Under the pieces are notes generated by a model. It searched no databases. It was not told the DNA's origin and saw only the letters and a list, made by a program, of their open reading frames with translations. 64,000 bases of DNA from Pseudomonas fluorescens HK44 (GTDB taxonomy: Bacteria > Pseudomonadota > Gammaproteobacteria > Pseudomonadales > Pseudomonadaceae), in NCBI RefSeq assembly GCF_000217955.3, contig NZ_AFOY02000010.1:62001-126000 (forward strand), in the 5' to 3' direction. The translations under genes and the position numbers were made by a program. Position 1 is the stretch's first letter; the number at the start of each line of letters is the position of its first letter. This document shows, piece after piece, positions 3,206 through 41,348 of the stretch.

Positions 3206-3219
3206 TTGACAAAAATCAA
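3206..3219. promoter_or_regulatory. Anr/FNR-type box (TTGACAAAAATCAA)
   Basis: Fourteen bases fit TTGAT-N4-ATCAA with one mismatch (C for T at position 5). The centre is about 67 bases before the ATG at 3280; a class II site would put the transcript start near 3254, leaving room for the AAGGAG at 3268-3273. One of a series of such sites in the island. Confidence 0.75.
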
Positions 3220-5539: not shown

Positions 5540-5553
5540 TTGATAAAAATCAA
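5540..5553. promoter_or_regulatory. Anr/FNR-type box (TTGATAAAAATCAA), perfect half-sites
   Basis: Both half-sites are exact. The centre is 77 bases before the groEL-like ATG at 5624, which fits a class II activator site with a leader of about 35 bases. Together with the box at 5429 it fills most of the 331-base divergent region; nothing else was recognised there. Confidence 0.85.
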
Positions 5554-5623
5554 CGTCGCGTGAGCCATTTCATGGAAGCTGCAAGTACCTGCCTGTTGCA
5601 GAGTGACTTGGGAGAGCAACCTG

Positions 5624-7240
5624 ATGGCTCACAGTAAAATTCTGTTTCGTGCCGCCGCTCGCGAGAAAATCCTCTGCGGTGCCACACAACTGGCGGACGC
5701 TGTCCGTGTGACCCTTGGGCCCAAATCGAAATCAGTGTTGATTCAGAACAAATGGGGTCATCCGACGGTCTGCAACGACGGCGTGACGATTGCCAAACGA
5801 ATCGACCTGCAAGACCCCGAGGAGGGGCTGGGTGCCCAGATGCTGCGTCAGGCGGCGGAACGTACCGGCGATGCGGTAGGGGATGGGACCAGCACGGCAA
5901 CGGTGCTGGCCCATGCAATCCTGGCCGACGGCATACGCAACGTCGTCGCCGGTGCCAGTGCGATCGATTTGAAGCGCGGCCTGGACCGAGGGCTGTTGCT
6001 GGTCGTGCAATCGCTGGCAGCCCAATCGCGTCCGGTCAGTACCCCCAGGGAAAAGGCCCAGGTGGCCACGCTTTCGGCGCATAACGATGCGGTTATCGGC
6101 CAGCTGGTTGCAGACGCCCTGGAAAAGGTCGGCGTTGAAGGCGTGGTCAGTGTCGAGGAGTCCAAGACCACCGAAACAGTGGTCGAGGTAATGGAAGGAA
6201 TGCGTTTTGACCGTGGTTATGTCTCGCCGTATTTCGTGACGGATACCGAGAAAATGCAGGTTGAGCTCGATGATGCCTACCTGCTGCTCTGTGACCATAA
6301 GATCGGCATGCTCAAAGACCTGCTGCCACTGCTTGAGTTGATCGCCAAAAGTGGCCAGCCACTGGTTCTGATTGCCGACGACATAGAGGGCGAGGCGCTG
6401 ACCACGCTGGTCGTCAACCAGATCCGTGGCGTATTGCGCGCGGTGGCGATCAAGGCCCCCGGCTTCGGTGATCGACGCAAGGAAATGCTCCAGGACATTG
6501 CCGTCCTGACCGGGGCAACGGTGGTCTCCAGTGAGCTGGGCATCAGTCTTGAACAGGTGGACTTGAGCCAGTTGGGACGAGCGCATCGCGTCGTGGTGCA
6601 AAAAGACAGCACGGCGCTGATCGGCGGCGCCGGTCAACGCGAGGCGATTGAGGCGCGCCTGCAACAGATCCGCGTGCAAATGGACGCGACTACCAGCGAT
6701 TACGACCGCGAAAAACTCCAGGAACGACTGGCCAGGCTGTCGGGCGGTGTCGCGGTGATCCGGGTCGGAGCGCCTTCCGAGGCCGAGATGAAGGCGCGCA
6801 AGGATGCGCTGGATGATGCCATTTCGGCGACTCGGGCGGCGATTGCCGAGGGCATCGTTCCGGGTGGCGGGCTGGCATTGCTCAAGGCTGTACCGATTAT
6901 CGCGGCCGAGGAGGCCGGTTATGAAGGCGATGCCAAAACCGGTTTGCAGATACTTCGCCGAGCGCTCGAAGCGCCGGCCCGGGTGATCGCGGAAAACTCG
7001 GCGGTGGATGCCGGCGTGGTCGTTGCCCGTATGCTGGCGGAACCGGGGAATATTGGCTTCGATGCGTCAGCCAATGTCTATGTGGACATGTATGAAGCCG
7101 GCATCATCGATCCGACCAAGGTGGTGCGTATCGCGCTGGAAAATGCCGTTTCAGTCGCCAGTATCCTGCTGCTGACCGAGGCGACCCTGACCGATATTCC
7201 GGAAAAGGAATCACCTGCCCAGCCACCGTTTCCCGAATGA
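5624..7240 (+). CDS. groEL: GroEL-type chaperonin, extra copy without GroES
   Basis: The start at 5624 (GGGAG 9 bases upstream) gives 538 residues beginning [14 protein letters not shown]; a GTG at 5603 in the same frame is less likely. Family marks are [13 protein letters not shown], the ATPase motif GDGTST with the catalytic Asp, and PGGG...L near the C-terminal equatorial domain. It departs from housekeeping GroEL in two ways: no groES precedes it, and the C-terminus ends in a Pro/Glu-rich stretch instead of a Gly-Gly-Met tail. It should assemble as a ring chaperonin, perhaps borrowing the chromosomal GroES. Its Anr box implies expression when oxygen is low. The main groESL operon is presumably elsewhere in the genome. 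Confidence 0.95.
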
Positions 7241-10723: not shown

Positions 10724-11940
10724 CCATCGGTGCCGGCTGCATCGGCGGCGTTGACCTGTGCATTGATCGCCGCTGCGTCAAACAGGCGACGATCGAACGC
10801 ATAGTCGCGAAAGGCTTGTAGCCACGGACGAAAACGCACGCCCGGCAGACGTGTGCGCTTCATCGCCTCTGTCAGGGAGCGCCTGACGATCTGAGCGGGA
10901 TCGCTGACCGGGTTGGCCAGGCCCGGCAGCCCCCAGGTAAAACCGGACGGGTAGAGCATCGGCGAAATATAGTCGAGCGGCTCGCCGAGCAATTCGATTT
11001 GCTGGCCGATCGCAGTATCGTCCAGGTTCCAGCAAACGTAGCCGAAGATGTCCGCGGAGACGAATACATTGTAGGGCGCGAGCCGTGTACGTGCGGCCTG
11101 CAGGAGGCCGACAATCGCCGCGGTCCGGTTGCGCCGGGTATTGGACAGGGCAAAGTGCAGCCCGCTCTTGTCGGGGAAGCGCACATAGTCGAACTGCACC
11201 TCGTCGAAGCCCATCTGCGCCGCCTCCTCGGCGACATCGAGATTGTGCTGCCGTACGGCGTGCGAAAACGGATCCATCCATTGCAGGTTCTCGCCATCGC
11301 GCCACGGCTCGCCTTCGGTGGTGTGCACGCTCCACTCTGGATGTGCGGCGGCGAGCGGATCGTCCTTGAACACCACGATGCGCGCGATCAGATACAGGTG
11401 TTGCGCATGCAGCCGGGCCAGCAGCGCCGCAAAGTCGTGGTCCTGTGGTGCGCGCATCGTCACGTGCGCGGCTGCGCCGATGGCCTCGCGCGCCGCGCTA
11501 CGATACGGCGTCAGGCCGCGGTCGCCCTTGACGTCGATCACCAGTGCATTGATCGCGGTGCTTTCGGCAAGGCTGAGGGCATTATTGCGCAGCGCCTTGC
11601 TGGTCACGCCGAACACCGACAAATACAGCGCTTTCGGGCGAAACGGGGTCAAGGTGAGCGTCACAGGCGTATCGCCGGAGACCTTCGCCTCGGTGCGCAG
11701 ATACCCTGGAGCGCGGGCCGCCACGCTCTCCACCGCCTGAGCGATTTCGAACTGCCCGTGTTCGTCGGTGCGCATCACACCCGCCGTTGTCGTGATGATC
11801 GCGTCGGCGATCGGATTCTGTGTGCTTGAGTCGAGCACGACACCCGTGACGGCCAGAGCGCCTCGCTGGCTCAACAGGGTAGTAAAGACGACGAGCAGCG
11901 TTGGGATCGTATAGCGCCTCACTGCGCTTATGAAGGTCAT
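10666..11940 (-). CDS. Exported DUF4015-type putative glycoside hydrolase
   Basis: The 424-residue product has a signal peptide (hydrophobic 11-29, ending about ALA), a small carboxypeptidase-regulatory-like beta domain (about 30-95, VTGVVLDSSTQNPIADA), then a TIM-barrel domain with ALVIDVKGDRG near residue 135, FDEVQFDYVRFP near 250, and LDYISPMLYPSGF near 335. These motifs are the hallmarks of the putative glycosyl hydrolase family DUF4015. Substrate unknown. It overlaps the deacetylase gene upstream by 4 bases and the NamZ-fusion downstream by up to 58, so all three are translated from one message. Together they look like a kit for modifying a cell-wall or exported glycan. Confidence 0.85.
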   Translation of the reverse strand: MTFISAVRRYTIPTLLVVFTTLLSQRGALAVTGVVLDSSTQNPIADAIITTTAGVMRTDEHGQFEIAQAVESVAARAPGYLRTEAKVSGDTPVTLTLTPFRPKALYLSVFGVTSKALRNNALSLAESTAINALVIDVKGDRGLTPYRSAAREAIGAAAHVTMRAPQDHDFAALLARLHAQHLYLIARIVVFKDDPLAAAHPEWSVHTTEGEPWRDGENLQWMDPFSHAVRQHNLDVAEEAAQMGFDEVQFDYVRFPDKSGLHFALSNTRRNRTAAIVGLLQAARTRLAPYNVFVSADIFGYVCWNLDDTAIGQQIELLGEPLDYISPMLYPSGFTWGLPGLANPVSDPAQIVRRSLTEAMKRTRLPGVRFRPWLQAFRDYAFDRRLFDAAAINAQVNAADAAGTDGWMLWNPRNHYDAADLPHR

Positions 11941-12755
11941 CGTGCGCTCTCCGTTGCGGGCATTGCCGGGGTGTTCGGTTCGCCAAGCAGGTGCGCGAAT
12001 GCGCTGGCGCCGTAGGCATCGGTCATCAGGAAGCGCGGCAGCGCGAGCAGTCGGTCGTGCCGGTCCGCCTTGCGCGCGTCCAGGGTGAAGGCGACCACAT
12101 AACCGTCGTCGGCGGCGAGTGCGATCAACTCGTCGTCATAGATCCCGAAAGGCCACGCGAGCATGTCGATAGGCGTACCGGTTTGCGCCTCGAGGCGTTG
12201 ACGGGATTTGTCGAGTTGCATGCGCACGAATTGCTGGAAATCTGCCGGCGTACGGTGTCTGCGCTCGACCTTGAAATTGGGATGCCAGTACGTATGCCCC
12301 TGGATGTCAAAGAGCCCGGTTTGTTTCAGGCTGCGCAATTGTTCCCAGGTCAGTGCATAGGACGCGTTCGAGATCGCCGATGGATAGATGAACAGCGTGA
12401 CCGGAAAACGCTCGCGCTGCACGATGGGCAACAGCTTTTCGAATACCGAGCGATGCCCGTCGTCGACGGTGATCGCCACCGGCTTCTGCGGTAACGTCGC
12501 ATTGGGGTCGCGCAACCAGTCGACCACCTCGCGCAGCGGCACGATGTGGTAGCCATGCTCGTGGAGGACGCGTAACTGGGTTTCGAAAGTGCTCATGCGC
12601 ACGGTCATCGAGTCGTCCAGTGTCTGCGAAAAACGGTGGTAAACAAGGATCGTGACGCGCGGTTCGGCGCTTTGCGCAGCTGCGTCCGCACCCCAGGCCT
12701 GCCCGCCGATGCACACCAGCATGGCGCACACCAGAAGCCGGATCGCGCTGCTCAT
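11937..12755 (-). CDS. Exported polysaccharide deacetylase (CE4 family)
   Basis: The second ATG at 12755 is favoured because GAGGG lies 5 bases upstream, overlapping the first possible start at 12767. The resulting 272-residue protein begins with a signal peptide (about 1-22, ending WGA). The NodB-like domain shows ILVYHRF, VAITVDDGH with the metal-binding Asp pair, DIQGHTYWHPNF with a His-x3-His-like metal site, and WPFGIYDDE. Such enzymes remove acetyl groups from N-acetyl-glucosamine residues of peptidoglycan or poly-N-acetylglucosamine. First gene of a three-gene operon. The Anr box at 12788 is only 33 bases away, too close for class II activation on this strand, so its promoter may differ. 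Confidence 0.9.
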   Translation of the reverse strand: MSSAIRLLVCAMLVCIGGQAWGADAAAQSAEPRVTILVYHRFSQTLDDSMTVRMSTFETQLRVLHEHGYHIVPLREVVDWLRDPNATLPQKPVAITVDDGHRSVFEKLLPIVQRERFPVTLFIYPSAISNASYALTWEQLRSLKQTGLFDIQGHTYWHPNFKVERRHRTPADFQQFVRMQLDKSRQRLEAQTGTPIDMLAWPFGIYDDELIALAADDGYVVAFTLDARKADRHDRLLALPRFLMTDAYGASAFAHLLGEPNTPAMPATESAR

Positions 12756-16669: not shown

Positions 16670-18037
16670 TCACACGCCAAACGGAAAGGTTTCGTCTTCC
16701 GGTTCCAGTGCCTGGCTTTTTGGTAGAGGCAGTGCCGTCACCGGTTGCGTCTGTTCAATCCACACCAAGGCGTCAAATTGCTCGGCCAGCACCGCCTCGA
16801 AGTAGTGGCTGCTGCGCTCGCTTTCGGGGCGGTAAATCACCCCGATGGCCCGTTCCAGCAGGGGCTCGGACAGCGCCTTGCGCAGGTCTTCGCGCTGGGG
16901 ATCTCGCCAGTCGGTCAAGGACGCGGGGACACCGGCTTTAAGGAACTGATGCTCCCAACTGTCGGCACGAGACGGCCGGATGTCCTTGATGAGCATGTCG
17001 GCGTCCCAGTCATCGGCTGCCGCCACCTGGCCACGGTCGGTGCTCATGCCGATCAGAACAACATCGCGCCCATAGGCGCTGCGGCACAGCTGACCGATAT
17101 TGAACTGCCCCTTCCAGCCCATTTCCGTGGCTGCGGCATTGCCGATATGGGAGTTGTGGGCCCATACAACGGCCTTGGCGTTAGGGCCCCTGTGCTCAAG
17201 CAACGCCCGCAGCGTGTCGAACATGTGCTGGTCGCGCAGGTTCCAGGAGGCGGTCGAGCCTCGATAAATCGCTCGATAGTAGTGTTCCGCCGCCCGAACG
17301 ACCCGGGCGTTTTGCGTGGCATCGAAGAACGCCTCGTCGTCCCGAACAAGCCCGGTCAGTTGCTCGGCCAGCATGGCATTGAGCTGCTCGACCACCGCTT
17401 GCTCGCAGGGCATCACACCGCCGTCTTCGACAAAGCGGCCGTACAACGCAGGTTCATCCTGCCAGGGAGTCAGACAGCCATAGCGCCGCCGCGCTTCGTG
17501 TGCCAGATGCGGGTCAACCCGGTCCAGATAACTCAGGACCTCGTGAATGGAGTTGCGCAAACTGTAAACGTCCAATCCGCGAAACTCGACTCGATGCTCG
17601 GGGGCGTGCTTGTGGTTGTATTGATGCAGCCAGTGGGCGAACGCTTTCACGTCGGTGTTGCGCCACATCCAGGTCGGGAATCGGCTGAAGATGTGCCGTT
17701 TCCAGGCTGTATGGGCCAGCCCGCGGACATAACGGTCAACATGACCGGCGTCTGGCCAGTCCGCTTCAACCGCCACAATCGTGAACCCGTGCTGCTCAAT
17801 CAGCCTTTGGGTAATCGCCGCCCGGGTTCGGTAGAAGTCGCTGGTGCCATGGCTGGCCTCACCGATCATCACCACGCGCGCATCGGCGTAACGGTCGAAC
17901 ATTTCACCGAAGGCGTCTGAATTCAATTCCGGCAGCGGTTGCGCATAGTGACGTAGCAGAGGGGCAATAGTGGTCCTGGCAACCGTGCTGCGCGGGCCGT
18001 ACAGTTTTTCCAGCAATTTCTGCGAAGGGGAGGTCAT
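16670..18037 (-). CDS. Erythromycin-esterase-family protein
   Basis: The ATG at 18037 (AGGGAC upstream) gives 455 residues beginning MTSPSQKLLEKLYGP; the longer frame to 18307 would cross the whole intergenic region. The core shows RVVMIGEASHGTSDFYRTRA, with the Glu and His of the EreA/EreB active site, then IVAVEADWPDAGHVDRYVRG, WAHNSHIGNA and a C-terminal ERAIGVIYRPESERSSHYFEA segment. Only a minority of this family hydrolyse macrolides; many copies sit in stress islands and have no known substrate, so resistance should not be assumed. An Anr-like site lies 92 bases upstream. Confidence 0.92.
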   Translation of the reverse strand: MTSPSQKLLEKLYGPRSTVARTTIAPLLRHYAQPLPELNSDAFGEMFDRYADARVVMIGEASHGTSDFYRTRAAITQRLIEQHGFTIVAVEADWPDAGHVDRYVRGLAHTAWKRHIFSRFPTWMWRNTDVKAFAHWLHQYNHKHAPEHRVEFRGLDVYSLRNSIHEVLSYLDRVDPHLAHEARRRYGCLTPWQDEPALYGRFVEDGGVMPCEQAVVEQLNAMLAEQLTGLVRDDEAFFDATQNARVVRAAEHYYRAIYRGSTASWNLRDQHMFDTLRALLEHRGPNAKAVVWAHNSHIGNAAATEMGWKGQFNIGQLCRSAYGRDVVLIGMSTDRGQVAAADDWDADMLIKDIRPSRADSWEHQFLKAGVPASLTDWRDPQREDLRKALSEPLLERAIGVIYRPESERSSHYFEAVLAEQFDALVWIEQTQPVTALPLPKSQALEPEDETFPFGV

Positions 18038-18128
18038 GAGTGTCGTCCCTATAAGAGAGGGGTTACCCGACTTGCAGCGCTCTGGGCTGCCTCTTTGATC
18101 ATTCCTACGCCTTGAACCGGGCGATTCA

Positions 18129-18142
18129 TTGAGTTTCGTCAA
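18129..18142. promoter_or_regulatory. Degenerate Anr/FNR-type box (TTGAGTTTCGTCAA)
   Basis: Two changes from TTGAT-N4-ATCAA, but the outer TTGA/TCAA are intact. The distance (92 bases) to the minus-strand erythromycin-esterase-like start suits class II activation. The rest of the 302-base divergent region up to 18340 holds no other site I can support for the cytochrome gene. Confidence 0.5.
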
Positions 18143-18339
18143 CAAAGGATGCAATGCCCCAAGATAAAGTGTCTGCATCACACGCCCGCAGGCCGCTGAA
18201 TATGACCTGACGCCATGGGCGTGATGAGCTTTGCAGGCTTGAACGGCGCAACACGCGACGGCACTTGTAAATGGCCTGCGTCTGGCTAGGCTCCATTCAG
18301 GATTCAATCGTTCGACAGTCTCTTTTCAGGGAAGCTGAC

Positions 18340-19758
18340 ATGAATGTGAAGGACGGCGAAGCAGGCGGGATGAAGTCGGTGGCGCAGTCGTTTTTTTTCG
18401 GGTGGCCTTTTTTAATCAAGTTACTCCGGCGACCGGGCACCCTGCTGGTGGCGCTATCAGTACTGCTGTTTTGTCAGTCAGCGCAGGCCTTGCCTTCCTT
18501 TGCACGTCAAACAGGACAAAGTTGCATTGCCTGCCATGCCGGTGGGCAATTTCCCGAGCTGACACCTTATGGGCGCCTGTTCAAGCTGACGGGGTACACC
18601 AACGGCGTACAAACCAACCCCTTGGCGGCCATGATCGTTGGTGACTTCACCTCGACGCGCAACAACAGTGACGGTGCAGGCAGCTCGATTTCCCCCAAAG
18701 ACAAGCAATTCATACTCGATTTCGGCAGCGTGTTCCTGGGTGGAAAGATCACTGATGTCATCGGCGGCTTTGCCCAATTCACCTACAGCTCGTACGACCA
18801 TCAGGACGCCTCGGGTAATTGGGTCGGCCACCTGGGTTCGGACAACTTTGACCTGCGTTATGCGGACAGCCGGCGGGATGCCTCACGAGATGTCATCTGG
18901 GGTGTCACATTGAATAACAACCCCACGGTTCAGGATGTCTGGAACAGCACGCCTGCGTGGGGCTATCCGTATGTCAGTTCAACCCTGGGCGCCTTCGGCG
19001 GGGTCCCCGCCTCGACGCTGATTGAAGGGGGATTGGCTCAACAGGTGGCGGGTATCGGCGCCTATGTTTATTTGAACAAGTCGTTGTATCTGGAGCTGAC
19101 CTCCTACCAGACCGCCAAAGACACCTGGCAGTTTCTGAGTCTGGGCAACAAGAAGGGCGACACCTACCATCCGTTGACGTACATGGATGGCTCAAGCCCT
19201 TATGCACGGCTGGCCTATACCTACGAGTGGGGGGCCCAAAACGTGATGGTGGGCGCCTTTGCGATGAATGCCAAAATTCTGCCCCTGGATGATTCCAACA
19301 ATCCGATCCATGGCCAGGGCAGCACCGAGTACCGGGACGTAGGCTTCGATGGCCAGTATCAGTACCTCCTTGAGCCCCATGCTTTCACGGCACAGATACG
19401 CTATGTCAGGGAAGAAATCAGGGATCACACCCAGACCCTCTTCGACGGACCCGCGTCCCTGCGATCGTTCAAGTTGAAGGGCAGTTATGTATACGGTGCC
19501 AAATATGGTGCGAGCCTGGCGTATACCAATGTCAATGGCAGCTCGGATGCCACGGCGTACCCGGACAGCGCCAGTTTTTCACCCGACACACAGATGTGGA
19601 CGCCAGAGATTTTCTGGTTACCGATGCAGAGTCTGAGGGTCGGGCTCCAATACAACTATTTCACCCGCTATTTGGGCGCAACGAACAACTATGACGGCAA
19701 TGGCCGTGATGCCAGTGAAAACGACACCACGTATCTTTATATGTGGTACGCGTTTTGA
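18340..19758 (+). CDS. Cytochrome c fused to an outer-membrane beta-barrel (Cyc2-like)
   Basis: The start at 18340 (AGGGAA upstream) gives 472 residues; an ATG at 18370 is also possible. A long N-region and hydrophobic segment (about 34-46) end in SAQA, a likely signal cleavage site at residue 50. Directly after it come ARQTGQSCIACH, a haem-c site (C62, C65, H66), and FPELTPYGRLFKLTGY. The remaining ~390 residues are alternating polar/aromatic strands with turns, no further CxxCH, and end in WYAF, as outer-membrane barrels do. The order haem then barrel and the FP-L--(Y/F)GR-FK--GY motif resemble fused cytochrome-porins such as Cyc2 of iron oxidisers. A role in electron passage across the outer membrane is inference. 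A dihaem cytochrome gene follows after 25 bases. Confidence 0.78.
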   Translation: MNVKDGEAGGMKSVAQSFFFGWPFLIKLLRRPGTLLVALSVLLFCQSAQALPSFARQTGQSCIACHAGGQFPELTPYGRLFKLTGYTNGVQTNPLAAMIVGDFTSTRNNSDGAGSSISPKDKQFILDFGSVFLGGKITDVIGGFAQFTYSSYDHQDASGNWVGHLGSDNFDLRYADSRRDASRDVIWGVTLNNNPTVQDVWNSTPAWGYPYVSSTLGAFGGVPASTLIEGGLAQQVAGIGAYVYLNKSLYLELTSYQTAKDTWQFLSLGNKKGDTYHPLTYMDGSSPYARLAYTYEWGAQNVMVGAFAMNAKILPLDDSNNPIHGQGSTEYRDVGFDGQYQYLLEPHAFTAQIRYVREEIRDHTQTLFDGPASLRSFKLKGSYVYGAKYGASLAYTNVNGSSDATAYPDSASFSPDTQMWTPEIFWLPMQSLRVGLQYNYFTRYLGATNNYDGNGRDASENDTTYLYMWYAF

Positions 19759-19783
19759 TCAGTTGAACGCAGGGGCGTAGACC

Positions 19784-20443
19784 ATGAAAGCATTGGGCAT
19801 GAAGAGTTCTTTCAATCGATCGCAGATTTTTCTTGCCCTCTGCGTGGTGGCGCTCACGGGTTGCAGCGGGACGAACGGGGAGACCTCGGAGAAAACCTCG
19901 CCCATGTCCGGTATCGCGATGGCGGACAAGGTTTGCTCCATGTGCCATGGGCTGACGGGGGAGTCCGTCTCGCCGATGTTTCCCAAGTTGGCCGGCCAGC
20001 AAAAGGAGTACCTGAAGTTGCAGCTGGCTGACTTCAAGGGCCATGTCCGCAGCGATAAGACCGGGACGCAGTACATGTGGGGATTTACCCATTTGACAGA
20101 GACCCAGATCAGCGAACTGGCAGACTATTTTTCCAGTCAGAACCCCATGAAGGCTGACGCCGATAAGCCTGATGCGCGCGGCGAATTGATCTTTCGCAAG
20201 GGCCTGCCTGGGTCGGGTGTCGCTCAGTGCAACTCCTGCCACGGTGCCGACGGCCAGGGCAATGGCCCGTTTCCGCGCCTGGCGGGTCAACATGCCGAGT
20301 ATATGATCCGCCAGCTCAAGGTTTTCCAGCAGACTGACCAGCGCCCGCGTGGCGCTCTGATGAAGCAGGTCACTCATTCACTGAATGATGAAGATGCCGC
20401 CTCTGTCGCGCATTACATTGCGACGCTCGGGGCAAAAAAATGA
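19784..20443 (+). CDS. Dihaem c4-type cytochrome lipoprotein
   Basis: The 219-residue protein has a signal with lipobox LTGC (Cys near residue 27), so it is probably anchored to a membrane facing the periplasm. Two class-I cytochrome domains follow: CSMCH near residue 51 with MFPKLAGQQ downstream, and CNSCH near 149 with PRLAGQHAEYM, each with Met-containing loops that could supply the sixth ligand. This is the c4 layout; c4 cytochromes carry electrons to terminal oxidases. Being 25 bases after the haem-barrel gene, it is a natural periplasmic partner for it. The next gene has its own Anr-like box. Confidence 0.9.
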   Translation: MKALGMKSSFNRSQIFLALCVVALTGCSGTNGETSEKTSPMSGIAMADKVCSMCHGLTGESVSPMFPKLAGQQKEYLKLQLADFKGHVRSDKTGTQYMWGFTHLTETQISELADYFSSQNPMKADADKPDARGELIFRKGLPGSGVAQCNSCHGADGQGNGPFPRLAGQHAEYMIRQLKVFQQTDQRPRGALMKQVTHSLNDEDAASVAHYIATLGAKK

Positions 20444-20477
20444 GGGCACGTCGCGGTTCCTGGCCTTCAGGCACTGT

Positions 20478-20491
20478 CTGATCTATATCAA
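20478..20491. promoter_or_regulatory. Anr/FNR-type box (CTGATCTATATCAA)
   Basis: One change from the consensus (C for T at position 1). The centre is 68 bases before the polX-like ATG at 20553; predicted class II transcript start is near 20526. Confidence 0.65.
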
Positions 20492-20552
20492 TGACCGCGT
20501 GGCGGGATCGGCAATCCTGACTCAGTGACCTCCACCGAGTCGGGATTGCGCC

Positions 20553-22355
20553 ATGAAGCTCACTGCGGCACCACTTCCAGAGCCATTGCCAACCTTGCCC
20601 TCTTCATCGGCCAAGGTCGGGCAGGCGATCGGCAATGACCGGATCGCCGCGATTTTTGACGATATTGCCGATCTGTTGGAAATCGAGGACGCCAATCCCT
20701 TCCGTATCCGGGCTTATCGCAATGCAGCGCGAACCCTGAGGGCTTTGACCTTTGAGGTCGCGAAGCTGATCGTGCGCGGTGAACCGCTGCCCAAGCTCAG
20801 CGGTATCGGGGTCGACCTTGCCGGCAAGATCAAGGAAATCGTCATCACCGGCGATTGCGCACTGCGCCAGCGGCTGCGTACGACATTACCCTTGGGGCTG
20901 GTCGAGCTGCTTTCCATCGCCGGGCTGGGGCCCAAACGCGTCAAACACCTTTATCACGACCTGGGCATCGAAACTGCGCAGCAACTGTGTCAGGCGGCCA
21001 AACAGGGGCGCATTCGCCATTTGCCTGGCTTCGGCGAAAAGATCGAAGCCCGATTGTTGCACGCCGCGCAGAAGGGCATCGGCAGGGACCGCCGGTTGCC
21101 ATTGGCCTTTGTGGCGCCGGTGGCCCTGAGGCTGACCGAGTACCTGCAACAGCTTCCCGGCGTTAAGGCGGCCACGGTTGCCGGCAGCTTGCGACGGATG
21201 CGCGACACTATCGGCGATATCGATATTCTGGTGGCCGCCGCGCCGTCGGTGGACGTCACGGCGCACTTTATCCAGCATCCGGACATTGCCACTGTACTGG
21301 CGCAGGGTCGCACCCGTACCAGCGTGATACTGGACACCGGCATGCAAGTGGACCTGCGGGTGGTCGAACCGACGGTCTATGGCGCCGCCCTGGTGTATTT
21401 CACCGGCAGCAAGGCGCATAACATCGCGATTCGCCAGCGGGCTCAGAAGCAAGGTCTCAAGCTCAGTGAATATGGCGTTTTCAGGGCAAAAAAATGTCTG
21501 GCCGGCACCACCGAACATTCTGTTTACCAGGCGTTGGGGCTGGAATGGATGACACCGGAGCTGCGCGAAAATCGTGGTGAGATTGCCGCGGCAGAGGCTG
21601 GTCGTTTGCCCAAACTGATTGAGTTGAGTGACCTCAAAGGTGATTTGCATGCTCATACCCGCGCCTCGGATGGGGGCAACAGCCTGGAAGAGATGGCGTT
21701 TGCGGCGCGGGAGGCGGGGCTGGACTACCTGGCGATTACCGAGCATTCGCGGTCCCTCAGAGTGGCCCATGGTCTGGATGCCGACCGGTTGCTCAAGCAC
21801 ATCGACCAGATCGATGCGCTCAACAGCCGCTTGCAGGGCGTGACCTTGCTCAAGGGCATCGAGGTGGACATTCTCGAAGACGGTAGTCTGGACCTGCCGG
21901 ACGCTATCCTCGGGCGTCTGGATCTGGTGGTCGGCGCCGTCCACAGCCATTTCGGCCTGACGTTGCGTCAACAAACCCAGCGCTTGCTCAGGGCCATGGA
22001 TCATCGCTATTTCACGATTCTGGCGCACCCGCTATGCCGGCTGATCAATGAGCGCGACCCGCTGAACCTGGATCTGCCGGTCATCATCAAGGCGGCCCGG
22101 CAGCGTGGTTGCTGCCTGGAACTCAATGCGCAGCCGCAACGCATGGACCTGTTCGACCTGCAGTGCCGCTACGCCAAGGATGAAGGGGTGCTCATTGCCA
22201 TCAACTCGGATGCGCATCGCACCGTTGACTTCGCCTATTTGCAGTATGGGGTCGCTCAGGCACGCCGTGCCTGGCTGGAAAAGCCCGATGTGCTCAACAC
22301 CCGTCCCCTGAAGGAACTCAAGGCGTTCCTCAGCGCCTGTTCTGCCCGGGGATGA
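20553..22355 (+). CDS. polX: PolX-type DNA polymerase/3'-5' exonuclease (X-family + PHP)
   Basis: The 600-residue protein has a leading ~25-residue disordered piece, an 8-kDa-like domain with helix-hairpin-helix motifs (LSGIGVDLAGKI near 82; IAGLGPKRVKHL near 122; LPGFGEKIE near 157), and a family-X palm with G211-S212 and the metal-binding D222 and D224 plus D267, all present. The C-terminal PHP domain has H366-AH368, ITEHSRS near 395 and a final INSDAHR, as in bacterial PolX enzymes that fill gaps and have 3'-5' exonuclease activity. Slightly longer than the usual ~570 residues. Its role is base-excision or gap repair; an Anr box is unusual for such a gene. No terminator was obvious after the stop. 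Confidence 0.93.
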   Translation: MKLTAAPLPEPLPTLPSSSAKVGQAIGNDRIAAIFDDIADLLEIEDANPFRIRAYRNAARTLRALTFEVAKLIVRGEPLPKLSGIGVDLAGKIKEIVITGDCALRQRLRTTLPLGLVELLSIAGLGPKRVKHLYHDLGIETAQQLCQAAKQGRIRHLPGFGEKIEARLLHAAQKGIGRDRRLPLAFVAPVALRLTEYLQQLPGVKAATVAGSLRRMRDTIGDIDILVAAAPSVDVTAHFIQHPDIATVLAQGRTRTSVILDTGMQVDLRVVEPTVYGAALVYFTGSKAHNIAIRQRAQKQGLKLSEYGVFRAKKCLAGTTEHSVYQALGLEWMTPELRENRGEIAAAEAGRLPKLIELSDLKGDLHAHTRASDGGNSLEEMAFAAREAGLDYLAITEHSRSLRVAHGLDADRLLKHIDQIDALNSRLQGVTLLKGIEVDILEDGSLDLPDAILGRLDLVVGAVHSHFGLTLRQQTQRLLRAMDHRYFTILAHPLCRLINERDPLNLDLPVIIKAARQRGCCLELNAQPQRMDLFDLQCRYAKDEGVLIAINSDAHRTVDFAYLQYGVAQARRAWLEKPDVLNTRPLKELKAFLSACSARG

Positions 22356-25985: not shown

Positions 25986-26321
25986 CTACTTCTGTTTATG
26001 CAGGTAATGCTGTATTGCATCAATCTCAAGCTTGTTTGGTGTCGCACCGTTGTCAGATTTGAAGCTGACAACGTTCCAGTGAGGCATTGGCGCCTTTAGC
26101 GGCTTCCCATGGTCATCAATACCGTTCAGTACAGCCCGCTCAAACATTTTTGACTTCCACTCGCTGGCATCCCCAGCCAATTTGGGTGCTGAGCCCCCAA
26201 CGCCTCGAGGCCCATGGCAGGCGCTACAGTTCTCTTGGTAAAGCGCCTCCCCATCTGGAGATGAGGCAATAGTCGATGAGCAAAAGAGTAGGGCCATCAT
26301 TGCAAAAAATGCATGCTTCAT
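25986..26321 (-). CDS. Small monohaem cytochrome c
   Basis: The 111-residue protein has a signal peptide (about 1-20, ending IASS or earlier) and one class-I haem site CSACH near residue 32, followed by GVGGSAPKLAG and a later PMPHWN that can supply the Met ligand. GGAG lies upstream of the ATG. It should be a soluble periplasmic electron carrier. The gene and its flanks look richer in AT than the surrounding DNA, suggesting a separate origin. The 263 bases upstream to 26585 show no gene or clear regulatory site. Confidence 0.92.
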   Translation of the reverse strand: MKHAFFAMMALLFCSSTIASSPDGEALYQENCSACHGPRGVGGSAPKLAGDASEWKSKMFERAVLNGIDDHGKPLKAPMPHWNVVSFKSDNGATPNKLEIDAIQHYLHKQK

Positions 26322-26584: not shown

Positions 26585-27286
26585 CTAAGCAACTGCACCA
26601 AATGAAATGCCTACGGCTGCAGTAATGGCCATCGCCAGCGCGCCCCACAGTGTCACCCGCCAGGCGCCGATCAGCAGATTGGCGCCGCCTGCCTTGGCGG
26701 CAATGCCCCCTAAAGCGCCGAGGAATACCAGTGACATGCCGGATATCCAGGCAATCACACTGTCAGTCGGTGCGAGGAGGGTTACGCCCAGCGGCAATGC
26801 GGCGCCCACTACAAAGCTGGCCGCCGAGGACATTGCCGCCTGCAGCGGTTTTGCGCTGAGCGCATCGGAAATGCCCAGTTCGTCGCGCGCGTGTGAGCCC
26901 AGTGCATCGTGTGCCATGAGCTGCGTGGCGACTTTACTGGCCAGCTCGGGTTCAACACCGCGCTCCACATAGATGGCCGCCAACTCTCGGTGTTCGGCAA
27001 GCGGCGCCGTCTCAAGCTCTGTTTGTTCGCGCAACAGATCAGCCCGTTCGGTATCGGCCTGGGAATGCACGGAGACGTATTCGCCCGCCGCCATCGACAT
27101 CGCACCCGCCACCAGCCCGGCAACCCCCGTGACGAGCAACGTGCTGTGGGTGGCATTGGCGGCGGCGACGCCGATCAGCAGACTGGCGGTCGATACAATG
27201 CCGTCGTTGGCACCCAATACCGAGGCCCGAAGCCAGCCGATCCGCTCATGTTTATGGGATTCAGCGTGTCTGCGAAAGAACTTCAT
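26585..27286 (-). CDS. VIT1/CCC1-family iron/manganese transporter
   Basis: The 233-residue protein opens with HERIGWLRASVLGANDGIVSTASLLIGVAAA, the strongly conserved first helix of this family, then AGAMSMAAGEYVSVHSQADTE, where acidic residues bind metal in the loop helices, and three C-terminal membrane segments (about 150-172, 178-198 and 208-230). These proteins move Fe2+ or Mn2+ out of the cytosol. No ribosome site stronger than GAAAG was seen. No Anr box lies upstream. Substrate metal is inferred from family only. Confidence 0.93.
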   Translation of the reverse strand: MKFFRRHAESHKHERIGWLRASVLGANDGIVSTASLLIGVAAANATHSTLLVTGVAGLVAGAMSMAAGEYVSVHSQADTERADLLREQTELETAPLAEHRELAAIYVERGVEPELASKVATQLMAHDALGSHARDELGISDALSAKPLQAAMSSAASFVVGAALPLGVTLLAPTDSVIAWISGMSLVFLGALGGIAAKAGGANLLIGAWRVTLWGALAMAITAAVGISFGAVA

Positions 27287-27364: not shown

Positions 27365-28336
27365 TCAGCGAGTTTCAATCTGCGCCTGGAGCCGTCCGGC
27401 AACAACCGATATTTCCCTGAACTGCTCGCCATCATGTACCACGAACAACGCATCCATGCCGCGCTCCTGCGCAAGCTCAGGACCGGCTTTCTCTCCCAGG
27501 ACCATCAGCGCGGTGGCCCATGCATCGGCAAGCATGCAGGTGGCGGCAACCACGGTCACTGCCGCGAGTGAGTTGGACAGGGGCGCTCCGAGACCAGGAT
27601 CCATCGTATGCGAGTAGTGCCGACCCGCGACCTCGATCCAGTGACGATAGTCCCCGGACGTGGCAATCGCCGCATCGCTGATCTCCATCACCCCCATGAC
27701 CTCACGAATGCCGCGGCGGGGTCTTTCAATGGCGACGACCCAGGACTGGCCTCCCGGCTTGGCCCCGCGTGCGCGCATTTCTCCGTCAATCCCCACCAGG
27801 TAGTTCGTTATCCCCCAACCATCGAGGCAACGTGCCATTTCATCCACCGCAAAGCCCTTGGCGATGCCTGAAAGATCAAGGGTAGTCGCTGAGCGTTTGC
27901 GGGCCAGGTTGCGCAGCGGATCAATCTCCAGCGCTTGAGTGGCCGGCACACGCCCCTGACGGTCCGAGGCACTGATGTGCGCTGCGCTGGGTTGTTGTTC
28001 GCCAGGCCCAAAGCCCCAGGCATTGACCAGATCGCCCACGGCAATATCAAACGCCCCGCTGGATTGACGACCCACCCGCAGCGCCGTGGCCAGGACGGTG
28101 GTCAGCTCCTCGGGAATGGGCAGCCATTGCTGTTCGGGTGCTGCGTTGAGGCGGTTGAGCGCGGATTGGGCCTTCCACGTCGACATCTGTTGATCCACTG
28201 TGTCGACAGCCGCAAACAGGCTCTTGTGGATGGCGGCCTCATCCACCGACGGCTCGGCGTAAAACACCGCACTGTAACGGGTGCCCATGGTTTCCCCGCT
28301 CAGGCTATAGCGTTGGGGTTCAGTAGACATCTTCAC
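27365..28336 (-). CDS. apbE: ApbE-like FAD:protein FMN transferase, without signal peptide
   Basis: The 323-residue protein matches ApbE: SGETMGTRYSAVF near residue 15, FDIAVGDLVNAWGFG, LDLSGIAKGFAVDEM near 175, YLVGIDGEMRARG, and HTMDPGLGAPLSN followed by ATCMLADAWATAL, where the metal-binding residues lie. The enzyme transfers FMN from FAD to Thr/Ser of target proteins. Most family members are exported or lipid-anchored, but this one starts directly with the fold. It overlaps the flavoreductase gene by 17 bases and ends the DUF2271 - reductase - apbE operon, so its target is likely the DUF2271 protein or the reductase. Confidence 0.93.
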   Translation of the reverse strand: MKMSTEPQRYSLSGETMGTRYSAVFYAEPSVDEAAIHKSLFAAVDTVDQQMSTWKAQSALNRLNAAPEQQWLPIPEELTTVLATALRVGRQSSGAFDIAVGDLVNAWGFGPGEQQPSAAHISASDRQGRVPATQALEIDPLRNLARKRSATTLDLSGIAKGFAVDEMARCLDGWGITNYLVGIDGEMRARGAKPGGQSWVVAIERPRRGIREVMGVMEISDAAIATSGDYRHWIEVAGRHYSHTMDPGLGAPLSNSLAAVTVVAATCMLADAWATALMVLGEKAGPELAQERGMDALFVVHDGEQFREISVVAGRLQAQIETR

Positions 28337-30542
28337 GGTAGCGTCCTTGTGCTTTGAGCGTCAGCACGTTCAAGTCGAGCGGGGCCAGCACTTCATCCAG
28401 GGCGTTCATCACCCCTTTGGCCATCTCGCGACTCCCGCACACCAACACGTGGGCGCCTTTTTCAATCAGCCGGCGTAGTGCCAGCGCGTCGGCGATCAGG
28501 CGGTCCTGCACATAGCTGCGTTCATGGGTTTGGGAGAAGGCGGCGCGCAACCGGGTGAGGCGCTGATCCGCCAGATAGCGGTTGAGCTCGGACTCATAGA
28601 GAAAGTCGGATGCCGGGTGACGTCCGCCCCAGTACAAGTGCATGGGGTGCCGGGCTTTGTTGTTGCGGATAAAACCGGCCAAGGGGCCGATCCCCGTACC
28701 GGCGCCGATGAGAATCACCGGCAGTTTTCCAGGGCCGGGACGGAACTCGGGATTGGGCTGTATGAAGGCTTCGATCTGTCCTCCCAGCGGCAAGTCATGA
28801 AGCAATCCCGAACACACGCCGTCGGTGTGTTTACGCACACAGATTTCCAGCACGCCGTCATCCGATCCGCTGGCCAGTGAGTAGTAGCGCGGCACCCTGG
28901 AGCCGGGCGGCAGTACGCCAACCAGATCTCCGGCCTGGAACCGGGGCAGGCCGTTGTTGCGTCTGTGTTTGGGCGCGCCCGGTGAGTGGGGCGTTGCGAC
29001 TGCGTTGAAACGCAGGATCTGGGTGGGGGCGTTCACGTGTTCGCCGTAGTGTGTGCGATCGATCAACGCCAAGGTCGTGGTATCCGGCAGTTGCGGGGTG
29101 TGTACCAGCGTCAGTTCATGGCCCAGCAACTGGCCAACGGCAGTGCCCCAACGGGTGAACGCCTGGGCGGATTGGCGATTGATGGTTTCAAGTTCCAGCA
29201 ACTGCGGCCAGCCTGAAGCAAGCAGAGCCGCCTGAGTGTCCATGGCAAACTGACAAAATTTCGGGAACTGCCGATCGCCAAATCCCAGTACGGCAAAACC
29301 CAGACCAGGCTTTGCGCGGGTATTAGCCAGTCGTTTGAAGAACTGTGAGGCCGAGGCGGGGGCGTCACCGTCGCCGGTCGTGGCGGTCAGGATGAACAGC
29401 CGTTGGGCGCTGCGATACTCCACCGCGAGCCGGTTCATGGGCGCGGTGTGGACGCGGTGGCCGGTCTGGTGCAACGCCTCATGCAAGGTCTTGGCAAACC
29501 CCCAGGTGGTGTTGCTTTCGCTCCCGACCAGAATCACCGTGTCGGCGTTTTGCACGCCACTGTTGTGAGGGATTTTCGGCAGCGACTGGCGACGACGCCA
29601 CCACAGTAGCGCACCGGTGATGCTCATCAACGGCACGCTGAGCGCGCAAACGCCGAGGAACAGGCCCAGCCACCAGAGGCTTTCGCCGGTATGCAACTGG
29701 TAGATGAATTCGTAGGCATTACGCATGCGGTCGTGGGGCTCGTAAGACAACAGTGCTCCGCTGGCGGGGTCGACATAACCGTCGCCCTGCGCGGTAGCCA
29801 ACGAAAAGGCATCCTCGGGATGACCGACGCTGGGGTAGATCAGCTCGCGCAGGTCGTTCAGGTCAGTCGCCAGCAGTGCTGGCAAAGTCGCGACCGGTGC
29901 TGCCGGGCCGCTGCTGAGCGTGCTCGGAAACACCGGCTCGCGTTGCGTCCCGTCCGAGATCAGGTTGAAGGTGGTGGCCGACATGTACAGCCCGGTCAAC
30001 GCGGACAACAGCAGGCCCAGAATCGCGAAACGCCCGACTTCAGCGTGCCAGCGCTGATTGAAACTGCCGCGCAGTGGCCGCATCACGCGCCGCCAGCCGC
30101 CCAGGCGTTGTGCCAGCAGCGCAGCCCCGGAAATCGACAGTATCAAGATGAACAGCGCACCGATGCCGGCTGCGGCGTGCCCCGGTGTGCCTGACAGCAA
30201 TGAGCGGTGCAGGTCTTTGACCCAACGGGTGAACGCCGAGGGCGTATAGCTCGCAACACCCGCTCCGGTCAGCGGGTCGACGCGCTCGGCAGCGGTCTGG
30301 CCGTCCTGGGTGAAATACACGATGACCGAACCCGAGGGGGTACGGCGGATTTTTTCGACTTCAGGGTAGTGGTTCGCCACTCGACCGGCCAACTCGGCAA
30401 CGTTCACCTGACCGGATGCCGGTACTGTCGCGTTCAGTCTTTCCAGGGCCGGATTGATCGACAGGATCGCACCGCTGAGCGCCAGCAGCATGACCAGCAG
30501 GGCTGCGACAAGGCCGGGCAGTGAGTGAAACTGGCGTAGCAT
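28320..30542 (-). CDS. PepSY-membrane/flavodoxin/FAD-NADPH reductase fusion
   Basis: The 740-residue protein starts with a PepSY-associated membrane domain: hydrophobic segments at about 10-30, 122-146, 172-193 and 296-320, with two PepSY-like periplasmic pieces. From about 335 comes a flavodoxin domain (VGSESNTTWGFAKTLHEAL, FMN loop; TATTGDGDAP), and from about 490 a ferredoxin-NADP-reductase-like part (RYYSLASGSDDGVLEICV for FAD, GAGTGIGPLAGF and CGSREMAKGV for NADPH). This is the sulphite-reductase-flavoprotein arrangement attached to a membrane unit, giving electron flow from cytosolic NADPH to the periplasm. Neighbours, DUF2271 upstream by 25 bases and apbE downstream, suggest the periplasmic acceptor is flavinylated. 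Confidence 0.93.
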   Translation of the reverse strand: MLRQFHSLPGLVAALLVMLLALSGAILSINPALERLNATVPASGQVNVAELAGRVANHYPEVEKIRRTPSGSVIVYFTQDGQTAAERVDPLTGAGVASYTPSAFTRWVKDLHRSLLSGTPGHAAAGIGALFILILSISGAALLAQRLGGWRRVMRPLRGSFNQRWHAEVGRFAILGLLLSALTGLYMSATTFNLISDGTQREPVFPSTLSSGPAAPVATLPALLATDLNDLRELIYPSVGHPEDAFSLATAQGDGYVDPASGALLSYEPHDRMRNAYEFIYQLHTGESLWWLGLFLGVCALSVPLMSITGALLWWRRRQSLPKIPHNSGVQNADTVILVGSESNTTWGFAKTLHEALHQTGHRVHTAPMNRLAVEYRSAQRLFILTATTGDGDAPASASQFFKRLANTRAKPGLGFAVLGFGDRQFPKFCQFAMDTQAALLASGWPQLLELETINRQSAQAFTRWGTAVGQLLGHELTLVHTPQLPDTTTLALIDRTHYGEHVNAPTQILRFNAVATPHSPGAPKHRRNNGLPRFQAGDLVGVLPPGSRVPRYYSLASGSDDGVLEICVRKHTDGVCSGLLHDLPLGGQIEAFIQPNPEFRPGPGKLPVILIGAGTGIGPLAGFIRNNKARHPMHLYWGGRHPASDFLYESELNRYLADQRLTRLRAAFSQTHERSYVQDRLIADALALRRLIEKGAHVLVCGSREMAKGVMNALDEVLAPLDLNVLTLKAQGRYREDVY

Positions 30543-30567
30543 GGTCAGCCTCCAAGGGGTGCCGGTG

Positions 30568-31038
30568 TCACATGTCGTAGGTAAAAGACTCGATGTAACC
30601 GCTGCCGGTCGAAGGTTTTCCCGCGCCTTGGGTGGTCAATGGCACGGTAATATCAGAGCGCGCCTCACGTTGGTTCTCGACAGCACTGTCGACGCGGATC
30701 TGATAGCCAGCATCGATCAGCGTGTCTGCCAGTTCAACGCTCACTTTCAGGGTGCGCCCGCTACCGACGCTGGCGCCGCTGACCCCGTCAAATTCGCTGG
30801 GGTTCAAGCCGCTGCCGCGGGCCCAGTCGGACAAATGCCTGTAGTACTTGGCCTTTCTGCCGGCCACCCACAGGGTTTTCTGGTATTTGCCGTTGGCGTC
30901 GGTCACATAAAACGCCAGATACGCGTCATTGCCGTCGTAATTCTTCAGCCGGGTGGTCAGGGTGACTTCCCGCGCCTGGGCCAGACCCGGCAGCGCAATG
31001 GCGGTGGCGAGACAAACCGCAGCAGTCAGTTTTTTCAT
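30568..31038 (-). CDS. Exported DUF2271 protein with flavinylation-like motif
   Basis: The ATG at 31038 gives 156 residues with a clear signal peptide (1-22, ALPGLAQA). The mature part is a beta-rich DUF2271 domain: VTLTTRLKNYDGNDAYLAFYV, KYYRHLSDWARG, then D84-GVSGAS90. This last motif resembles the D-G-x-(S/T)-G-A-(S/T) sequence at which ApbE attaches FMN, with S90 as acceptor. It is first in the operon with the membrane flavoreductase and apbE, and is divergent from a two-component system. I infer a periplasmic flavoprotein reduced by the flavoreductase. Confidence 0.85.
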   Translation of the reverse strand: MKKLTAAVCLATAIALPGLAQAREVTLTTRLKNYDGNDAYLAFYVTDANGKYQKTLWVAGRKAKYYRHLSDWARGSGLNPSEFDGVSGASVGSGRTLKVSVELADTLIDAGYQIRVDSAVENQREARSDITVPLTTQGAGKPSTGSGYIESFTYDM

Positions 31039-31171
31039 GGTGGAATTCCCGTTAAAGCGTTGTGGCTGAATCCTGCGCCTGTAAGCTGACAGCAACCTGA
31101 AAGGGGATTCAGGCCTTTGTCAGGTTCGTCAGCCAAGGTGTTGTACGGCGAACCATCACAGGAGGGTTGTA

Positions 31172-31831
31172 ATGCGGGTTTTATTGGTTGAGGACGCTGT
31201 GGGGCTCGGCGAGGCGGTACGTGAGCAACTCGCGGATGACGGCCACGCAGTGGACTGGGTGCAGCGCCTCGATCACGCTCAGACCAGCGTGCGAACCACA
31301 CGTTATGACCTGATCTTGCTTGACCTGATGCTGCCGGACGGGCGCGGGCTGGATTTTTTGCGCCAGCAACGCGGGGCAGGGGATGTCACTCCGGTGATCA
31401 TACTCACGGCTCGAGACCAGATATCCGATCGCATTGAGGGCCTGAATGCGGGGGCTGACGACTATCTGGTCAAACCCTTCGATCTCTTCGAGTTGTCCGC
31501 CCGAGTCGCGGCGGTGGCGCGGCGCTACAGTGGTAATCCCAATCCGCAGATCAAAGTGGGCGGGTTGCAGATCGACATGACCGCTCGCACGGTGCTGCGC
31601 GCCGGCATGACGGTGGACCTCACCGCGCGCGAGTGGGCATTGTTCGAAGCCTTCATCCAGCGCCCCGGCGCGTTGTTATCCAAATCCCAGCTGGAAGATC
31701 GCCTGTATGCATTCGGCGCCGAAATTGAAAGCAACACCATCGAGGTCTATATCAGTCGTCTGCGCAAGAAACTGGGCCGCGAGATGATTGAGACGGTCCG
31801 TGGGATGGGCTACCGGTTGATGCCGGAATGA
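31172..31831 (+). CDS. OmpR-family response regulator
   Basis: The 219-residue protein has a receiver domain with VEDAVG (acidic pocket near 7-8), phospho-acceptor D51 in LILLDLMLPDG, T79/A80 and K101, and a winged-helix DNA-binding domain from about 125 (REWALFEAFIQRPGALLSKSQLEDRLY, then NTIEVYISRLRKKLG). GGAGGG is before the ATG. It shares a 133-base divergent region with the DUF2271 operon, which it probably controls. The histidine kinase follows with ATGA overlap. Similar to QseB/PmrA-type regulators; the signal is unknown. Confidence 0.95.
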   Translation: MRVLLVEDAVGLGEAVREQLADDGHAVDWVQRLDHAQTSVRTTRYDLILLDLMLPDGRGLDFLRQQRGAGDVTPVIILTARDQISDRIEGLNAGADDYLVKPFDLFELSARVAAVARRYSGNPNPQIKVGGLQIDMTARTVLRAGMTVDLTAREWALFEAFIQRPGALLSKSQLEDRLYAFGAEIESNTIEVYISRLRKKLGREMIETVRGMGYRLMPE

Positions 31832-40867: not shown

Positions 40868-40944
40868 GCGCCCGTAGCTCAGCTGGATAGAGCATCCGCC
40901 TTCTAAGCGGATGGTCGCAGGTTCGAGTCCTGCCGGGTGCGCCA
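40868..40944 (+). tRNA. tRNA-Arg (anticodon TCT)
   Basis: Full cloverleaf: acceptor GCGCCCG pairs with CGGGTGC, anticodon loop CTTCTAA with TCT, T loop TTCGAGT, and encoded CCA at 40942-40944. Confidence 0.97.
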
Positions 40945-40976
40945 TTAGGCAGCTTTGGCACAAGTAGCGCGATATG

Positions 40977-41052
40977 GTGGGCGTAGCTCAGTTGGTAGAG
41001 CACGGGATTGTGACTCCCGTTGTCGTGGGTTCGATCCCCATCGTCCACCCCA
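40977..41052 (+). tRNA. tRNA-His (anticodon GTG), copy 1
   Basis: Acceptor GTGGGCG pairs with CGTCCAC; the base before it is G (G-1 of tRNA-His) facing the discriminator C. Anticodon GTG in loop TTGTGAC; encoded CCA. Sequence identical to copy 2. Confidence 0.97.
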
Positions 41053-41060
41053 TATTTCGA

Positions 41061-41093
41061 AAGGCGCCAGATTTAACCGTCTGGCGCCTTTGC
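41061..41093 (+). terminator. Hairpin after tRNA-His copy 1
   Basis: AAGGCGCCAGA and TCTGGCGCCTT pair in an 11-bp stem. Only TTTGC follows, so read-through to tRNA-Leu is likely. A copy of it follows the second tRNA-His. Confidence 0.7.
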
Positions 41094-41110
41094 TTTAACA
41101 GTAGCGAACC

Positions 41111-41195
41111 GCGGATGTGGTGGAATTGGTAGACACACTGGATTTAGGTTCCAGCGCCGCGAGGCGTAAGAGTTCGAGTCTCTTCATCCGCACCA
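41111..41195 (+). tRNA. tRNA-Leu (anticodon TAG)
   Basis: GCGGATG acceptor pairs with CATCCGC; long variable arm, anticodon TAG in ATTTAGGTT, and encoded CCA. Confidence 0.96.
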
Positions 41196-41272
41196 ATTAA
41201 AGCTTCAGTCTGGCCGTTGGGCGGGTTGGAGTTCAGCAAAGAAGTTGTTTGGCTTCTTTGTTATGCAATATG

Positions 41273-41348
41273 GTGGGCGTAGCTCAGTTGGTAGAGCACG
41301 GGATTGTGACTCCCGTTGTCGTGGGTTCGATCCCCATCGTCCACCCCA
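41273..41348 (+). tRNA. tRNA-His (anticodon GTG), copy 2
   Basis: Identical to the copy at 40977, with the same flanking TATG before and CCATATTTC after it. The repeated unit includes the hairpin that follows. Confidence 0.97.

Follow-up and report, generated by a model that had tools for sequence, protein, structure and literature searches.

A Cyc2-type cytochrome-porin and a dihaem lipoprotein encoded side by side in Pseudomonas fluorescens HK44: a putative low-oxygen electron conduit, most likely horizontally acquired

A fused cytochrome-porin gene followed by a dihaem lipoprotein gene

The DNA analysed here, a stretch of 64,000 nucleotides from P. fluorescens HK44 (the window), carries two haem-protein genes on the same strand, the second of which begins 25 bp downstream of the first. 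The features of the pair are as follows.

18340..19758, + strand: cyc2-like gene encoding a 472-aa fusion of a c-type cytochrome with a 16-strand porin (ORF, Cyc2 motif, AlphaFold2 (AF2) model, porin fold)
18340..18489, + strand: signal peptide region, residues 1-50 (judged by eye; low pLDDT at residues 1-49)
18487..18513, + strand: ALPSFARQT, the AXPXFAR[Q/K][T/Y] motif, residues 50-58 (sequence)
18523..18537, + strand: CIACH haem c site, C62, C65 and H66 (sequence)
18622..19752, + strand: predicted sixteen-strand β-barrel, residues 95-471 (DSSP on the AF2 model; porin matches by VIA and Foldseek)
19784..20443, + strand: gene for a dihaem Cyc1/cytochrome c4-type lipoprotein, 219 aa (Pfam Cytochrom_C; best PDB match 1h1o; lipobox LTGC)

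An earlier note on this DNA had described a 472-residue protein with one CxxCH after the signal peptide and a WYAF ending, and both were seen in the ORF at 18340-19758. The single CxxCH (C62-H66) directly follows the hydrophobic N-terminus, and the protein also contains FPELTPYGRLFK..GY. The start codon is uncertain, with an alternative ATG at residue 11. Searches with the 472-aa protein gave zero Pfam, NCBIfam or PDB sequence matches at E values up to 10. In the available portion of Keffer et al. (PMC8406198), AXPXFAR[Q/K][T/Y] is described as unique to Cyc2, and the marks of Cyc2 are this motif, a single CXXCH and PXL, with printed spacings of 5 and 4 residues. The window protein has PEL at residues 72-74, after CIACH at 62-66, and its spacing is slightly off the printed values. 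Its 472 aa lie above the Cyc2 length limit of at least 365 aa, and an N-terminal signal was recognised by eye from the hydrophobic N-terminus.

Pattern searches of genome contigs gave 597 matches, at least 578 of them encoding relatives, and the best 80 loci were analysed. The Cyc2 motif was exact in 55 of these 80 (best of at least 578), a conservation that is partly built in since the loci were fetched via motif patterns. In an alignment of 115 of 128 selected rows (f39, short and duplicate frames were left out), L74, G78, F81 and K82 were invariant, as was CxxCH, for which the aligned ORFs had been picked. M98, in the first strand, was Met in 98 of the 115 relatives, and the rus-type rows that were checked lacked it; this residue is a possible second haem ligand.

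An AF2 model of the 472-aa protein, built with 79 window and locus sequences, reached a pLDDT of 85.6 and a pTM of 0.83, superseding an earlier run with 12 sequences (pLDDT 69). Structure prediction was the means by which the earlier note had proposed to look for a 16-strand barrel; sixteen strands were found with confidence, and the porin matches reached Z 22. The top VIA matches of the model were the porins OmpK36, OmpC, OmpF and PorB (Z 21-22, 8-12% identity), and the Foldseek matches were likewise porins. Short helices at residues 52-58, 62-65 and 76-83 surround the predicted haem site of the model, from which haem itself is absent. With a barrel predicted, a soluble periplasmic protein was ruled out. 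The reading as a Cyc2-type cytochrome-porin, as the earlier note had it, is thus supported by the published motif, by the predicted 16-strand barrel and by a cyc2-cyc1 gene order as in rus operons.

The partner is a Cyc1-type lipoprotein and the two genes are paired in closer relatives

The 219-aa protein has two CxxCH sites, at residues 51 and 149. Its best PDB match was the cytochrome c-552 1h1o (E 7.6e-36), compared with 9.5e-27 and 6.3e-25 for the c4 cytochromes 6q2u and 1etp. The c4-type similarity spans the mature protein: residues 49-215 align with 1h1o, and similar stretches align with 6q2u and 1etp. We take 1h1o to be Cyc1 of the iron oxidiser A. ferrooxidans. The lipid-anchored c4-type cytochrome that the earlier note had described 25 bases downstream was therefore borne out by the lipobox LTGC, the two CxxCH sites and a c4-type sequence closest to 1h1o.

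A lipobox was present in 59 of 77 downstream haem proteins of relatives (from the best 80 of at least 578), and the residue after the lipobox cysteine was Asp in none of these 59. By the usual lipoprotein sorting rule, a residue other than Asp after the cysteine favours the outer membrane. This suggests that the outer membrane is favoured for the partner lipoproteins. As far as we searched, the lipoprotein form of a Cyc1-type partner is new.

A two-haem ORF lay directly downstream (start at -60 to +300 bp) in 74 of the best 80 loci of at least 578; among 808 other ORFs of these loci, taken as a control, 10 had one. The remaining six had a one-haem ORF (three, two of them cut by a contig end) or none (three); one of these exceptions (L044) has a homologous dihaem gene upstream instead. 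By phmmer, 76 of the 77 downstream haem proteins from these best 80 loci matched the partner in the window. Every other cluster of neighbours, as delimited by a crude gene caller, occurred in at most 11 of the best 80 of at least 578. In a phylum-wide sample of 17, the downstream ORF had two or more haem sites in five, one site in three and none in nine. The pairing weakens with distance from the window copy.

Distribution and origin of the pair

Within Pseudomonas, matches were found in 4 of 398 genomes, HK44 included, three at 89-100% and one at 44% identity. This rarity agrees with the earlier view that such a protein is unexpected in the genus. Beyond the genus, full-length relatives are common in Betaproteobacteria, for example in Paraburkholderia and Undibacterium, which to our knowledge are not known as iron oxidisers. 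The family is therefore not confined to iron oxidisers. That the Cyc2 family extends beyond iron oxidisers is already known from the available part of Keffer et al. (PMC8406198).

A tree of 67 rows, built by a quick method and rooted at the midpoint, placed four near-identical Pseudomonas copies in one clade (support 100), nested in a ten-row set with Comamonadaceae and other Burkholderiales (SH-aLRT 99). The window copy was placed apart from rus-type and f39 sequences in this tree. Pseudomonas pairs about 90% identical lie at three different loci: beside PolX and stress genes in the window and in strain FW300-N2E3 (L033), behind cytochrome b561 and a two-component system in L034, and among unrelated genes in L117. 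The cyc2-cyc1-like pair was most likely acquired horizontally by Pseudomonas, moving as a pair, and its occurrence there as a moving pair is new as far as we searched. Among the four Pseudomonas copies, dN/dS ranged from 0.08 to 0.11 in the first gene and from 0.14 to 0.19 in the second, which points to purifying selection on the pair. Since relatives occur in many genomes, dN/dS is low and the barrel is predicted with confidence, the ORF pair is no chance product. For the same reasons of low dN/dS (0.08-0.19) and intact copies in four Pseudomonas genomes, a decayed or unused passenger of a genomic island, as the rare and patchy occurrence in the genus might suggest, is highly implausible.

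Nine plasmid records carry relatives that cover at least 80% of the query, each at less than 60% identity. The cyc2-type genes on plasmids of A. ferrooxidans and Acidiphilium cryptum are both 31.2% identical to that of the window, and one on an A. ferrooxidans plasmid (L113:5953-7320) lies by a transposase gene and a c-type cytochrome gene. A known plasmid island was ruled out, as megablast of 22.8 kb gave one 79-bp match. In FW300-N2E3, a 902-aa ORF after PolX (L033:14104-16809), a P-type ATPase as judged by its start, has no counterpart among the called window ORFs, so the island is a mosaic. In Burkholderia relatives the pair is preceded by a one-haem ORF and followed by a CcsB gene for cytochrome assembly (L036:7831-13623). 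A MofA-like multicopper oxidase beside the Burkholderia copies was rejected: the candidate was a partial 1967-aa ORF in L036 with neither copper motifs nor a Cu-oxidase Pfam match.

Comparison with rus operons and other Cyc2 systems

The rus operon has the layout cyc2-cyc1-cup-coxBACD-rus, an order published for Acidiferrobacter in the available part of PMC10654088. The window pair resembles its first two genes, in the same order and with a Cyc1-type dihaem partner. Two loci (L160 and L161) open with cyc2 and cyc1, continue with cox-like genes and have rusticyanin at a distance of about 6 kb, an arrangement that agrees with the Acidiferrobacter order. Their cox and ctaB genes were identified by size, order and sequence starts, and the cyc1 frame of L161 is split into two ORFs. 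The window proteins are 27% and 34% identical to those of L160. A genome family located via one rusticyanin above the cut-off carried the cyc2 family in 15 of 18 genomes, and f244 is Acidiferrobacter-like by operon order alone. In contrast to the rus operon, cox and rusticyanin genes are not adjacent in the window, where the next gene encodes a PolX-type polymerase, and a search of the HK44 genome for rusticyanin gave a weak match alone (E 4.2e-5, below cut-off). The partner is a lipoprotein in the window, whereas on reading no lipobox was seen in the Cyc1 of L160 or in that of L168, which belongs to the same genome family.

The Cyc2 family (Cyc2 of A. ferrooxidans, Cyc2 of M. ferrooxydans PV-1 and Cyt572 of Leptospirillum) and the window protein share AXPXFAR[Q/K][T/Y], a single CXXCH, PXL, a length of more than 365 aa and the 16-strand barrel, which is predicted for the window protein. 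They differ in that the Pseudomonas host lacks a RuBisCO large chain and that many relatives of the window copy have FNR boxes. The f39 set, far from the window copy in the tree, matches its cytochrome part only; it is perhaps of the cluster 1 type, at a guess, and we would guess that f39 is Gallionellaceae.

FNR boxes upstream of the pair and its relatives

A motif scan for TTGAYN4RTCAA, allowing one mismatch, found 17 sites in the window against 5.2 expected, and none of 100 shuffles had as many. The sites discussed here are listed below without strand.

18129..18142: TTGAGTTTCGTCAA, candidate FNR/ANR box that departs from the motif at one position and lies 211 bp ahead of the cyc2-like ATG
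5540..5553: exact FNR box ahead of the chaperonin gene at 5603-7240
Starts at 3206, 5429, 7271, 12788 and 15088: further exact FNR boxes

The exact boxes lie before or at the called starts of genes for a beta-CASP hydrolase, the chaperonin, a universal stress protein (USP), a nitroreductase and a phosphoribosyltransferase. L033 and L117 have the box before the cyc2-like gene at an unchanged distance, and L034 lacks it. A sigma-70 scan of 17900-20700 found no promoter.

Exact boxes were found upstream of 28 of 78 relatives (from the best 80 of at least 578) compared with 11 of 777 control windows (odds ratio 39; Fisher p 4e-23, a value that is not strict as the rows are related). With one mismatch allowed, the counts were 43 of 78 and 53 of 777. 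Shuffled upstream windows had a mean of 0.17 exact boxes and a maximum of 1. In this test, start sites were fixed 35 residues before CxxCH; the upstream sequence of L099 and L100 was too short for these two loci to be included, and L054 and L112, with broken or cut frames, were kept with badly placed windows. TANNNT followed 21 bp after the box in five of the 28 exact-box relatives from the best 80 of at least 578. One Burkholderiaceae group, with membership taken from record titles and 7 of 13 members in the tree, had an exact box in 0 of 13 and a one-mismatch box in 1 of 13; the remaining 65 loci of the best 80 of at least 578 had 28 exact boxes and 42 with at most one mismatch. In the phylum-wide sample, exact boxes were present in 6 of 17, or in 5 of 16 without L005, which is on the same contig as L066 of the best 80. 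Family f39 had none in 10 (12 were given, two of them without a frame).

According to the available text of PMC5506826, rus of A. ferrooxidans is controlled by RegBA, in contrast to the FNR boxes of many relatives of the window pair. The rusticyanin family had an exact box in 4 of 14 loci and none among nine (L143-L148 and L152-L154), but eight of these nine have a one-mismatch site. Because most rus-type loci have such a site, the contrast is not clean. Literature searches that combined cyc2 with FNR gave no report of FNR control of cyc2, and the enrichment of FNR boxes upstream of cyc2 relatives is new as far as we searched.

Genes of the FNR family were seen close to the cyc2-type gene in L050, L068, L140/L164 and L141/L167; in L093 the distance is about 6 kb. 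In HK44, an Fnr (247.5 bits; cut-off 228) is encoded at L172:11741-12595, about 26 kb before cyc2 in the same island. Around it are genes for USP-like proteins, phosphoketolase, FtsH and alcohol dehydrogenase, with further boxes. Together, the boxes suggest that in many relatives the module seems to be under a low-oxygen switch. Two more FNR homologues are encoded in the HK44 genome, one on contig C8 and a weak one on C19. The island at 3220-25799 carries genes for the beta-CASP hydrolase, chaperonin, USP, PRPP synthase, phosphoribosyltransferases, an erythromycin esterase-like protein, PolX and Hsp20, with FNR boxes. In stress-gene content it resembles the low-oxygen-activated (lxa) locus of Burkholderia cenocepacia, in which, by the available part of PMC6127331, universal stress proteins are encoded together with a small heat-shock protein, a cytochrome c of 12 kDa and a protein linked with the reduction of flavin or nitro compounds. 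Unlike the window island, the lxa locus as described in that part of the paper (PMC6127331) names no Cyc2-like gene.

A possible inward electron conduit at low oxygen

We propose that the horizontally acquired pair is probably an outer-membrane conduit, used at low oxygen via FNR/ANR, that takes electrons inward from Fe(II) or another small reductant. The 472-aa protein would form a 16-strand barrel in the outer membrane and carry its single-haem domain at the N-terminus, and the dihaem lipoprotein would probably be anchored at the periplasmic face of that membrane, accept electrons from the porin haem and pass them to periplasmic cytochromes. Expression of the pair would occur under oxygen limitation through FNR/ANR. 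The most likely direction of flow would be inward: dissolved Fe(II), or some other small reductant outside the cell, would supply electrons that end at a cytochrome oxidase, and the conduit would be an energy supplement in a heterotroph. A RuBisCO large chain was not found in the HK44 genome, which rules out an autotrophic iron oxidiser. With no adjacent cox or rusticyanin gene either, growth on iron alone is unlikely. Against the proposed conduit, the box of the window copy has a mismatch, lies 211 bp out and is absent from L034.

The same pair of proteins could instead carry electrons outward at low oxygen, as an electron sink. Quinol would then feed b561 or bc1, and the electrons would go on through the dihaem lipoprotein and the haem of the porin until a dissolved acceptor outside the cell, such as an Fe(III) chelate, a humic or a phenazine, took them up. 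The low-oxygen boxes and the stress island with its own fnr are compatible with this direction, as are the b561-like genes that immediately precede the cyc2-type gene in three relatives (L034/L118, L003/L119 and L014/L124; by Pfam for L034) and the homologues of a PepSY reductase, ApbE and DUF2271 just upstream of the pair in L034. However, no more than 8 of 168 locus records had b561 relatives (the count includes duplicates, and many of the records have short flanks), the partner is closest to the cytochrome c-552 1h1o, presumably an iron oxidiser's, and Cyc2 of M. ferrooxydans PV-1 oxidises iron and has a potential of +208 mV, by the available part of PMC8406198. Outward flow fits the b561 genes too, but overall we regard it as unlikely. 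Inward flow is favoured by analogy, because Fe(II) oxidation is the activity of the characterised relatives, the best match of the partner is what we take to be an iron oxidiser's carrier, and at neutral pH it is mainly where oxygen is low that Fe(II) stays in solution. In the window, genes for ApbE, a PepSY/flavodoxin reductase and DUF2271 lie by a two-component system (27365-33159), in what looks to us like a cluster for flavin-based transmembrane electron transfer.

Quite improbable is a redox-gated porin that takes up a metal or ligand such as iron or a chelate, in which the haem would tune the redox state of the metal rather than serve respiration. The predicted porin fold and a VIT1-family metal transporter gene about 6 kb downstream would suit such a role, but the sole neighbour beside most of the best 80 of at least 578 copies is a dihaem electron carrier. 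The VIT1-family gene (26585-27286) adjoins a gene for a 111-aa monohaem cytochrome c (25986-26321).

In heterotrophic Proteobacteria, cyc2-cyc1 modules that stand alone may be a widespread class of FNR-controlled respiratory accessory for low oxygen, with which common bacteria of soil and water obtain electrons from dissolved Fe(II) or another donor outside the cell; the module would spread as a two-gene unit, here into Pseudomonas. This is a plausible generalisation that we hold tentatively. In the available portion of Keffer et al. (PMC8406198), the function of distant Cyc2 homologues is uncertain and the iron role of many Cyc2 relatives outside known iron oxidisers is an open question in the field. 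The FW300-N2E3 orthologue (L033) is 97% identical to the window copy, the two genes of that strain occupy L033:10001-11416 and 11445-12101, and barcoded transposon mutant pools exist for that strain, as stated in the accessible text of PMC9007349. A tractable Pseudomonas copy and these pools make the question directly testable, and the FNR boxes point to oxygen limitation as the relevant growth condition. Elsewhere in the window, a tRNA cluster at 40868-41348 (Arg, His, Leu, His) contains two tRNA-His genes.
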